NCBI GenBank assembly: GCA_026390015.1
Contig: JAPLGS010000077.1
Coordinates: forward strand, 56,770 to 120,769
DNA from: Chloroflexota bacterium
GTDB lineage: Bacteria; Chloroflexota; Anaerolineae; Anaerolineales; Villigracilaceae
DNA length: 64,000 nt
Direction of reading: 5' to 3'
A model generated the notes under the pieces. It made no database searches. It was given only the letters and a program-made list of their open reading frames with translations, and was not told the origin of the DNA. Made by a program: the position numbers and the translations under genes. Positions 1 through 4,779 of the stretch are shown piece after piece (the first letter of the stretch is position 1; every line of letters begins with the position of its first letter).

Positions 1-549
1 AAACCACTCTTGATAATCACGCCGATAAGACGACCACGTCCCGCCGAGGATCAGCAACTCGATCTTTTCTGTCGGATGCCCCAGATTCTCAAGCGCGCGG
101 ATCCGCGCATGCACTTGCTCATACGGATCAAATTGATGCTCGAGCGCGCGCATCGCGCCAGGTTCATCAGGCAGATAACTCTTCGGCATCCGCACATCAG
201 TGGGGCAGAAGATACACTTGCCGGGGCATGGATACGGCTTCGTTAAAACGGTAACAGTGGTCACGCCCGAAAGAGTCCGCATGGGTTTCATGCGTATCTT
301 TTCAAGCAAGACTCGATCCGCCTCAACATCGCCTGCCGCCAGCATTTGGTTATATGCGGCCACCAGCGCGGCCTTTGTCAGATAGCCTCCGCCATGCTGC
401 GCGTCCAGTGGATGAGAGCGCAGCGCGCGCATCACATCCATCCCTTCGCGGACCTCCTCCAACACATGCTGAGCCAGCGCAAGTTTCTCTGACGTAAGGT
501 TGTTAAATTTTTTCCAGCGTTGTCTTCGTTCGGAAATTTCCATGATCAT
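1..549 (-). CDS. elp3: Elp3-family radical SAM / tRNA wobble-uridine carboxymethyltransferase, truncated by window edge
   Basis: Own reverse-strand translation from ATG at 549 (or 543), open to position 1: MIMEISERRQRWKKFNNLTSEKLALAQHVLEEVREGMD...MRTLSGVTTVTVLTKPYPCPGKCIFCPTDVRMPKSYLPDEPGAMRALEHQFDPYEQVHARIRALENLGHPTEKIELLILGGTWSSY. Radical SAM Cys motif CPGKCIFCP and Elp3-type context. Not in the supplied ORF track because it has no stop inside the window. Confidence 0.9.
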   Translation of the reverse strand, partial: MIMEISERRQRWKKFNNLTSEKLALAQHVLEEVREGMDVMRALRSHPLDAQHGGGYLTKAALVAAYNQMLAAGDVEADRVLLEKIRMKPMRTLSGVTTVTVLTKPYPCPGKCIFCPTDVRMPKSYLPDEPGAMRALEHQFDPYEQVHARIRALENLGHPTEKIELLILGGTWSSYRRDYQEWF

Positions 550-599
550 TTTTAACCTATACCAATAACGTGCGAGGATTATACCGTTATAATGCCGCT

Positions 600-1328
600 A
601 TGAATTCCAGCACCGCACAGCAGCTCCTTAAGATCAACCGCGAATTTTACGATCATTTTGGAGAGTCTTTTTCCGCCACACGTCAGCGGCTGCAACCGGG
701 TGTAAAAAAAATTCTTGGAACAATTCAAGCGGATGTCTCCGTTTTGGATCTGGGATGCGGCAACGGGAATTTCCTACGCGAGCTCAGCAGACGTGGCCAC
801 AAAGCAAATCTTCTCGGCGTAGACTTTAGCCTGCCTCTGCTTCGAGATGCAGAATCCCAACCCGAGGGATTTTCCGCCAGATTCTTGGAAATTGATATTA
901 CTAAGTTATCAGTTATCAGCAATCAGTCTCTGATACCTGATAACTGGTCACTGATCACTGCTTTCGCCATGTTACATCATATCCCATCAACTGAAATGCG
1001 TTTGGATATTTTGCAGACGGTTCGTAAATTATTGAAAACGGATGGGCGATTAATTTTATCCAACTGGCAGTTCTTGAACAGCGAAAAACTCAAGTCACGT
1101 ATTCAAGCATGGGATAAAGTTGGAATTGCTGACAGCGATTTGGACGCGGGGGATTATTTATTGGATTGGCGCAGCGGAGGCGAGGGCTTGCGATACGCAC
1201 ATCATTTCACAACGCAGGAACTGCTTGCGCTGGCAGAACAGGCCAAAATGCGCGTGATCGATTCTTTTTCATCCGATGGCGATGGCGGCAATCTGGGATT
1301 GTATCAAGTGTGGGCGCCGACCACCTGA
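600..1328 (+). CDS. Class I SAM-dependent methyltransferase, Trm9/ABH8-MT-like
   Basis: ORF 570-1328; likely start ATG 600 (MNSSTAQQLLK). SAM motif VLDLGCGNGNFL, YDHFGESFSATRQRLQPGVKKIL N-terminus typical of Trm9-like enzymes. Confidence 0.8.
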   Translation: MNSSTAQQLLKINREFYDHFGESFSATRQRLQPGVKKILGTIQADVSVLDLGCGNGNFLRELSRRGHKANLLGVDFSLPLLRDAESQPEGFSARFLEIDITKLSVISNQSLIPDNWSLITAFAMLHHIPSTEMRLDILQTVRKLLKTDGRLILSNWQFLNSEKLKSRIQAWDKVGIADSDLDAGDYLLDWRSGGEGLRYAHHFTTQELLALAEQAKMRVIDSFSSDGDGGNLGLYQVWAPTT

Positions 1329-2352: not shown

Positions 2353-4779
2353 CTACGGCATATCTGTTGCGAAATAGATCTGTCCTTTTACCGCAAGGTA
2401 CAACACATGATTGGAGCCAACTGCAATTGCGCCAATGGGGCCTGGTGGCATGGAATTTGATGTTCCAAGTTTGGGGCGGAACTGTTTTTCCAGGCCAAGC
2501 GTGCGCGGCGAAAAACGGAAAACGCCCTGAGACGGCGAGTCAGCATCAAGCAGCAGAATGGATTGATCCGGCAAGGCAGTGAACAGTATTTGTGTGAAAT
2601 GAGCACTGGCAAACAGCTCTGTATCACGGTATGCCGGAAAAGGATTGTTATACGGTGATGGATCCTGACATCGCGTGGAGGCTGAGTTGAGGCGGCTAAA
2701 GGAGCAGGTGGAAAGATGCCCGTCTGCGTGAAGCATATATAGATCGTCACCGGAAACAACCAGGTCAATGACATCCTGTTTTTCAGGGGTTTGCCCTCCA
2801 AAGAAGAAGTTTGGAAGATCTATAAAAGCTCCATCTATACCGGTATATACCCACACAGCGCGCGCAGACGAATCCAAGACATACAAATTACTACCATCCA
2901 ACACAAAGGCTGTTACACGTTCCCAACTGGTGGCAGGCGGCGGCAAGGGAACGGGCAGAGCCGCTTGTCCGGGAGCACAATATAGCAGGGTGCCGGTCGC
3001 GTCAATGCCCAACAATGAGGCTCCTTTTATATTCACCAGCGGTAATGTGAGAATATCGACCAGCGGGCCGACTGTGTATTCACCATAAACGCCCGGCTTG
3101 CATTCAAAAGTAGCATCCAATTCAAAACCGTGTCCACTCTTACCCGGGCTGGCTCTGAGCACTTCTCCAGTGGCCGCGTTAAGCATGTACAGATCAGATT
3201 CGTTGGCGGCCATGCGGCTGATGTCGATCCCAAGATTACTGCTGAAGGCTGGGTTGAATTTTAAACGCGCGATCCCCAGCAACGTATCGAGTTTGGATTC
3301 CGCTTCCTGGCGGAGCGTGATCGTATCAGAAGTTTCGCGATGTGATTCAGCGATAGCCACATTGCTGATGACATTTTCCCAGGCTTTACGTTGCTCCACA
3401 GGGTCGGTCAGCGCAAGCGCTTGCGCCTTCATTTCATTTGCCTGAAACAAATAAGTATCATATTGCTGACTGCGCCCATATCGCAGATAAACAACACTGG
3501 CGATCGTGACCACCGCCAGCGGAATCAGCACAGCCATGAACAGCATGGTTGCAGTGGATGGCGAATTAAGGGATACGGTGGAATCAGCGTTGGGCAGCAA
3601 ACGCGGTATAAAACTTCTAACTTTGTCGCTGATGGTTTTGATACTTCGGCGCGTAAATTGGATCGAACCTGCCAGCGCCTTCGCGGTTTGACGAGTCAGA
3701 ACAGAGGTTTCGATCTGAACTAAAGGCTTCCTCACTCTTACAGGAACTGGCTCAAGGATTTTTTCGACGATGGGCAATTCCCCTGCTTCAACCACAAGTG
3801 ATTCTTCCTTTTCACCGGCAGGTTCACTTTCGCTGGGCTGTAGCTGAGCTCGTATTTGAGCCCGTGGAATGGAAGCGGGAAAATCGTGCGATGGGCTGAC
3901 CGTGATCTTTTTTTCCGGAGGAAACGATTCTTCGTGCTGAAGCGGGATCGCATACGCTGAGGCTTGAATCACATGCGCTTGCAGCGAGTCAGCGGAGTCA
4001 GTTTTGGGGGCGGAAAAAATTTCCTCGTGCTGAGGCAGGCTCGGGCTTATGCCCAGAGGCGCTCCCATTCTCTTTTCCTCTTTTGCTTCAATGGTCGCTT
4101 TTATTAGAGTCACAGCGCCCAAACCATCTGTCGCCTGTATCAGCACAGCGTTTAGATCTGCACTGGTCAGCGTCATCAAGCGGCGGCGCATTGCATCCAT
4201 CGAAGATGGAGCCGCATCATTCAGCGTGCTATTCCAGGCGCTCGGCGCTCTCCCAAAAAAGAGCAAACGATCCCCCGCATTCAATGTGGTCTGGGCATAA
4301 TGGATATTCACAATTTGGTTGGCGCCCAGTCCCTTGCCCGCAGCAAGCGGCTCATGAATATGACGTGATTCTTTTTGGCCGAACCAATATGCATGCATGG
4401 GACCACACATTGAAAGCGTGCATTGTTCATCACGCAGCACGGCAAGGGTCAGCCACCCAATAGCATATTGGCCCTGTATATTGGTGGTCATGTTGCGGTC
4501 GAACAATGTTTTATTTACCTGATCGGCGGCAGTGCGCAAGGCACTGGTAAGCGAGCCGTTAGTTTTATAAAAAAGATTTGCCGCGTCCTGCGCCAATTTT
4601 AAATATTCAGTTGTTGAAAATGTGGATGTGCCGGTCAGCAATAAATAAACGATCAGGCGGTCTCTTTCGCGGCCGCGCACCGCGTTCTGCGGAGGCATAA
4701 GCGTAACCAAGCCAGGCAGGCTGGCGATTTCCTGTCCGTTGATGCGGTAGATGGGTGTAAGAGTGAGATCGAGTGCCAT
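2353..4779 (-). CDS. PP2C-like N-terminal domain + TM segment + C-terminal beta-propeller-like extracytoplasmic domain
   Basis: 808 aa; N-terminal PP2C-like fold hints (QYAIGWLTLAVLRDEQCTLSMCGPMHAYWF, GDRLLFFGRAP, IQATDGL), hydrophobic segment TMLFMAVLIPLAVVTIASVVYL, C-terminal repeats with GSNLYVLDSSARAVWVY / GDDLYMLHADGHLS. Confidence 0.65.
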   Translation of the reverse strand: MALDLTLTPIYRINGQEIASLPGLVTLMPPQNAVRGRERDRLIVYLLLTGTSTFSTTEYLKLAQDAANLFYKTNGSLTSALRTAADQVNKTLFDRNMTTNIQGQYAIGWLTLAVLRDEQCTLSMCGPMHAYWFGQKESRHIHEPLAAGKGLGANQIVNIHYAQTTLNAGDRLLFFGRAPSAWNSTLNDAAPSSMDAMRRRLMTLTSADLNAVLIQATDGLGAVTLIKATIEAKEEKRMGAPLGISPSLPQHEEIFSAPKTDSADSLQAHVIQASAYAIPLQHEESFPPEKKITVSPSHDFPASIPRAQIRAQLQPSESEPAGEKEESLVVEAGELPIVEKILEPVPVRVRKPLVQIETSVLTRQTAKALAGSIQFTRRSIKTISDKVRSFIPRLLPNADSTVSLNSPSTATMLFMAVLIPLAVVTIASVVYLRYGRSQQYDTYLFQANEMKAQALALTDPVEQRKAWENVISNVAIAESHRETSDTITLRQEAESKLDTLLGIARLKFNPAFSSNLGIDISRMAANESDLYMLNAATGEVLRASPGKSGHGFELDATFECKPGVYGEYTVGPLVDILTLPLVNIKGASLLGIDATGTLLYCAPGQAALPVPLPPPATSWERVTAFVLDGSNLYVLDSSARAVWVYTGIDGAFIDLPNFFFGGQTPEKQDVIDLVVSGDDLYMLHADGHLSTCSFSRLNSASTRCQDPSPYNNPFPAYRDTELFASAHFTQILFTALPDQSILLLDADSPSQGVFRFSPRTLGLEKQFRPKLGTSNSMPPGPIGAIAVGSNHVLYLAVKGQIYFATDMP

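Follow-up and report, generated by a model that had tools for sequence, protein, structure and literature searches.

The genes for an Elp3 homologue and for a Trm9-like class I SAM methyltransferase (MT), which stand back to back in the 64,000-nucleotide stretch of Chloroflexota DNA analysed here (the window), probably encode a two-enzyme wobble-uridine pathway that leads to mcm5(s2)U34 and takes the place of MnmE/MnmG. In the proposed scheme Elp3, which combines radical SAM and GNAT domains and would work without the other Elongator subunits, places the carboxymethyl group derived from acetyl-CoA on C5 of U34 to give cm5U34. The divergently transcribed MT would then methylate the carboxylate with SAM, turning cm5U34 into the ester mcm5U34, and thiolation by MnmA would convert mcm5U34 to mcm5s2U34 in the Lys, Glu and Gln tRNAs. 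We infer the substrate and product of the pair as well as the order in which its steps follow. The formation of cm5U34 by archaeal Elp3 (PMC13315578) and the methyltransferase activity of yeast Trm9 (PMC5372719) are both established.

In the window, the N-terminal 183 codons of elp3 occupy positions 1-549 on the minus strand and the rest of the gene lies beyond the window edge, while the MT of 242 amino acids, delineated by sequence, profiles and an AlphaFold model, is encoded at 600-1328 on the plus strand. The preliminary description had reported a divergent pair separated by a gap of about 50 bp, and both genes and the quoted peptides are indeed present; the intergenic region spans 550-599 (50 bp from ATG to ATG) and is the presumed site of both promoters, and no sigma-70 consensus was found within it. 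The same description had called the Elp3 truncated, which is an effect of the window edge only. On the parent contig, of which the window covers positions 56770-120769, the full elp3 (L009:7658-9319, ORF C119) is an intact frame of 553 amino acids, and a pseudogene is ruled out by this intact gene. The era gene follows downstream of elp3 on the same strand of the parent contig, with an overlap of a few bases. The MT start is placed at the ATG at 600, and its M1 is nearly invariant across the 34 orthologues; the mechanically called GTG at 570 is left unsupported by this near-invariance.

The Elp3 of the window genome is matched by TIGR01211 with 492 bits over residues 69-552 (cut-off 350) and has the Radical_SAM (PF04055), Radical_SAM_C (PF16199) and GNAT (PF00583) domains. 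The radical-SAM CxxxCxxC motif (C108-PGK-C112-IF-C115, positions 205-228 on the minus strand) and the C-terminal GNAT/KAT domain are both present, and the protein aligns with D. mccartyi Elp3 (DmcElp3, 5l7j), the CPGKCIFC cysteine motif included. The protein is extended at its N-terminus by about 85 residues that are missing from the crystallised D. mccartyi protein and align in part with archaeal MinElp3. This Elp3 may serve better as a model for the biochemistry of the bacterial enzyme.

The divergent pairing of elp3 and the MT is far beyond chance because it is conserved across about 15 families. In a set of 61 genomes (the window genome and 60 relatives from 15 families) the MT was found in 53, Elp3 in 55 and both in 51; the two genes share a contig in 45 of these 51, every such pair lying within 1.5 kb. 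A scan of named GTDB genomes gave 271 MT relatives, the best 80 of which were used as named loci. Nearly all of these 80 belong to Anaerolineales or Chloroflexi metagenome bins, a few being otherwise named, and the closest is an uncultured Chloroflexi bin with 98% identity. Elp3 was seen in 67 of the 80, divergent from the MT in all 67, and in the named loci without a visible Elp3 the contig mostly ends near the MT start. Homologues of two ORFs downstream of the window MT, at 1330-2310 (326 amino acids) and 2353-4779 (808 amino acids), both on the minus strand and both devoid of a Pfam match, are also found in more than 50 of these 80 named loci. The distance between elp3 and the MT in the named loci falls into two ranges, one of about 10-330 bp and one of about 770-1440 bp. 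The longer spacers that were inspected (L099, L120, L150 and others) are occupied by a gene for a cysH-type (P)APS reductase that runs in the same direction as elp3; this gene is missing in the window genome.

Synteny inertia was considered as the cause of the linkage and rejected. Among 20 loci from other families the MT was present in all 20 and adjoined elp3 in 16, and none of six other neighbour proteins of the window genome was found when searched in those loci. Neighbourhood conservation of the two genes within the phylum, which the preliminary description had named as a check on the pairing, is thereby borne out by the shared contigs, the divergent order and the distant families alike.

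The distribution of the two genes was followed in a phylum sample of 301 Chloroflexota genomes, of which 52 carry Elp3. True MT orthologues (E <= 1e-56) occur in 28 of the 301 and all 28 are Elp3-positive; within the class of the window genome the MT is present in 28 of 29 Elp3-positive members and in none of the nine Elp3-negative ones. The exceptions are G248, which has Elp3 and no MT, and G232, where the MT is present and unlinked to elp3. Weaker matches of the MT profile (1e-15 to 1e-19) cover mostly the SAM-binding half only. One remote match to the MT was found in viral contigs and none in phages.

MnmG was detected in 121 of the 301 genomes and its overlap with the 52 Elp3 carriers is zero, against an expected overlap of about 21 (hypergeometric 7e-14, with no correction for kinship). 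Likewise, none of the 61 close relatives has an MnmG above the cut-off, against 9 of 14 control genomes. Matches of about 60 bits in the relatives were not counted, as they probably represent TrmFO-type paralogues: they are partial matches to frames of about 450 amino acids, far below the cut-off of 525 bits. The 2-thiouridylase MnmA is over its cut-off in 50 of the 52 Elp3-positive genomes. Since Elp3 and MnmG never occur together in the phylum sample, Elp3 seems to stand in for the bacterial MnmEG route to the U34 side chain at C5. The s2 thiolation appears to stay bacterial. As a separate observation, seven genomes of the same class (G095, G184, G208, G264, G317, G330 and G337) have neither Elp3 nor MnmG at E <= 1e-60.

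Bacterial U34 pathways end with a methyltransferase, and on this general ground the MT might be thought an N-methyltransferase of the MnmC or MnmM kind which finishes an mnm5U-type pathway. We regard this as very improbable, as such enzymes use nm5U, which arises after the MnmEG step, and MnmG is lacking, the product of Elp3 is a carboxylate and not an amine, and neither Pfam nor NCBIfam gives a family-level match to these enzymes.

The remaining Elp3-positive genomes of the phylum sample measure 0.9-2.2 Mb and encode a DmcElp3-like protein. In one such locus (L188) the Elp3 hardly differs from D. mccartyi 5l7j, from which we infer that this second group is Dehalococcoidia. The Anaerolineales-type MT was found in none of the Dehalococcoidia-type Elp3-positive genomes; each of the 15 loci of this type examined (L188-L202) has another MT divergent from elp3, within 150 bp of it or slightly overlapping by the mechanically called starts. 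The profile of these MTs has Yarrowia Trm9 (5cm2) as its best PDB match (77.7 bits, E 8.5e-21). D. mccartyi, whose Elp3 is in the PDB as 5l7j and 6ia6, offers a bacterial stand-alone Elp3 and a locus type with a divergent Trm9-like MT, as in the window; its Elp3 has about 42% identity to that of the window and is devoid of the N-terminal extension, and its MT resembles eukaryotic Trm9 more closely than the window MT does.

For the window MT itself, Pfam and NCBIfam gave generic methyltransferase matches only, below the equivalog cut-offs. Structure searches were equally unspecific: Foldseek with the model of the window MT placed 5cm2 at rank 6 (TM-score 0.77 by target) with many class I methyltransferases scoring close, and on the two models that were searched Trm9 stood at rank 6 and rank 2, class I methyltransferases being too alike to discriminate. 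Such results would also fit an enzyme whose substrate is an unrelated protein, lipid or metabolite and whose gene simply remains beside elp3. We consider this improbable, since the adjacency outlasts every other tested neighbour, the MT is confined to Elp3 carriers in the phylum sample, and the second lineage has a different Trm9-like MT at the same place.

Profile comparisons in both directions point to Trm9. Searched against the PDB, the MT profile (an alignment of 34 orthologues) retrieved Trm9 5cm2 third with 52.6 bits; the two matches above it are two-domain proteins whose best domains reach 32 and 28 bits, so that among the single-domain matches shown 5cm2 ranks first, with 3sm3 close at 49.4 bits. 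The same profile scores archaeal and yeast Trm9-type proteins at 52-79 bits and the Dehalococcoidia-type MTs at 51-66 bits, and the other class I methyltransferases of its own genome at no more than 41 bits. Conversely, a Trm9 profile ranked the window MT first of the 40 class I methyltransferases of the genome (56.5 vs 47.1 bits); as its archaeal member this profile includes a protein from a Natronorubrum plasmid, which is annotated only as a class I methyltransferase and was taken as Trm9-type by its motifs. The alignment of MT and Trm9 by hhalign extends over 192 columns at 99.6%. A single-sequence search of the genome was made with what we take to be the yeast Trm9 sequence, which matches 5cm2 at 241.6 bits and fits five of five published residue numbers. 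In this search a generic methyltransferase (C169) came first and the window MT third. C169 has no RYxH region, and the profile comparison inverted the ranking.

In the maximum-likelihood tree the window MT, the Dehalococcoidia MT and Trm9 fall on the same side of a branch supported at 92/80 with two long-branch rows excluded; with both rows kept, the support is 89/45 and one intruder enters. This grouping of the MT with Trm9 is suggestive, its support being moderate and not decisive. The Trm9-like character claimed in the preliminary description is partly supported, since the MT sides with Trm9 over other class I families in the two-way profile scores and, with moderate support, in the tree; it is weakened by the third place with the single yeast sequence, by the residue differences described below and by the lack of a Trm112 that tracks the MT.

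In yeast Trm9, R29, H115, R241, Y243 and N271 are the active-site residues with published mutants (PMC5372719). All 34 MT orthologues keep equivalents of R29, H115 and R241 without exception: R28 (in FSATR, positions 681-683 on the plus strand) corresponds to R29, the pair H126-H127 (975-980, plus strand) to H115-H116 and R198 to R241 by alignment. A wider MT set has Q at the H115 position in 1 of 12 members. R198 lies inside a predicted beta-hairpin of residues 185-201 (DYLLDWR...LRYAH, positions 1152-1202 on the plus strand), placed by the alignment and by the AlphaFold model (pLDDT 93.5), where strands 185-190 and 196-201 stand ahead of the RYxH helix. From its position, this hairpin may be the equivalent of the Trm9 lid.

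The position of Y243 is Ala or Val in the MT orthologues (Ala, Val, Ile or Leu in the wider set), and that of N271 is not conserved, with no clear match in the window MT family. These differences raise the main rival to the proposed pathway, namely that the Anaerolineales MT works in the Elp3 pathway and makes a product other than the mcm5 ester, for example on another Elp3-derived side chain or at a neighbouring anticodon position. Two of the five mutated Trm9 positions would then have changed to reflect the new substrate, and D226, G227, G230 and Y235 are newly invariant within the window MT family. On the other hand, the R29, H115 and R241 counterparts are unchanged and the predicted hairpin occupies the position that the lid has in Trm9. 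Moreover, the Dehalococcoidia-type MTs, in the same divergent layout, keep R29, H115, R241 and Y243 (R[YF]Y, the HH pair and WYxxR), and the RNIC motif in their C-terminal strand matches the Trm9 DNWW (N271) by eye. A change of substrate in Anaerolineales, which the Y243 and N271 differences would suggest, is held to be unlikely, though likelier than the other alternatives.

A Trm112 partner had also been suggested as something to look for. The window genome has one weak, unlinked Trm112p-domain match, and across 76 genomes the Trm112p matches, weak and single-domain, do not follow the MT in their distribution, several MT-positive genomes having none. A specific Trm112 partner for the MT is not supported, though the MT may have a diverged one.

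An archaeal precedent exists in the clustering of Elp3 and Trm9 in Sulfolobus solfataricus, and an mcm5s2U-like U34 has been predicted in Haloferax volcanii (PMC2584109). In view of the Sulfolobus precedent, the Chloroflexota pair is a bacterial variant of an already known arrangement. As in the archaeal cluster (PMC2584109, PMC5372719), Elp3 is found without other Elongator subunits near or alongside a Trm9-like methyltransferase. The window pair differs in being bacterial and divergent, where the archaeal genes are described only as clustered, in having as its MT a distinct diverged family with no evident Trm112 dependence, and in the proposed thiolation by MnmA in place of Tuc1. With eukaryotic Trm9-Trm112/ABH8 (yeast Trm9; 5cm2) the window MT has in common the class I fold, the FSxTR, HH and R-Y-x-H motifs, the three active-site counterparts and a beta-hairpin at the lid position, whereas its identity is about 23%, its C-terminal strand SDGxxGxLxLY differs, the Y243 and N271 positions are altered and no Trm112 is tracked. 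MnmE/MnmG, the cmnm5U34 pathway of most bacteria, serves the same wobble uridine C5 through unrelated enzymes and chemistry, and its MnmG is absent wherever Elp3 was found in the phylum sample. A review of 2020 placed bacterial Elp3 in one clade, Dehalococcoides, and noted that direct evidence of xcm5U34 derivatives was lacking there (PMC7663514). We found no description of a bacterial Trm9-like gene beside elp3 in the open-access literature searched.

The minimal two-gene mcm5U pathway first proposed for this locus gains from the conserved linkage, the Trm9 affinity and the absence of MnmG, and loses some ground to the Y243/N271 substitutions, the yeast ranking and the Trm112 result. In its fullest form, the reading that a minimal, Trm112-independent Elp3 and Trm9-like pathway replaced MnmEG in Chloroflexota, with mcm5(s2)U34 in the tRNA and with one MT lineage in Anaerolineae and a second, distinct one in Dehalococcoidia, both in this divergent arrangement, is one towards which we lean.

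Our study extends Elp3 across Anaerolineae, beyond Dehalococcoides, and has shown that Elp3 and MnmG are mutually exclusive within the phylum sample. It places a candidate second enzyme beside elp3 in both lineages, including beside a near-identical match of the Elp3 of solved structure, and it turns the question of the bacterial Elp3 product into a specific mcm5U/mcm5s2U prediction which can be tested by LC-MS. The pair may also offer a model of the Elongator-Trm9 pathway with two proteins, possibly free of Trm112. As Elp3 and a Trm9-like MT are present and MnmG is absent, the Chloroflexota carriers probably make an archaeal/eukaryotic-style wobble base; if this is true, Chloroflexota tRNA would carry mcm5(s2)U34, a nucleoside regarded as eukaryotic and archaeal.
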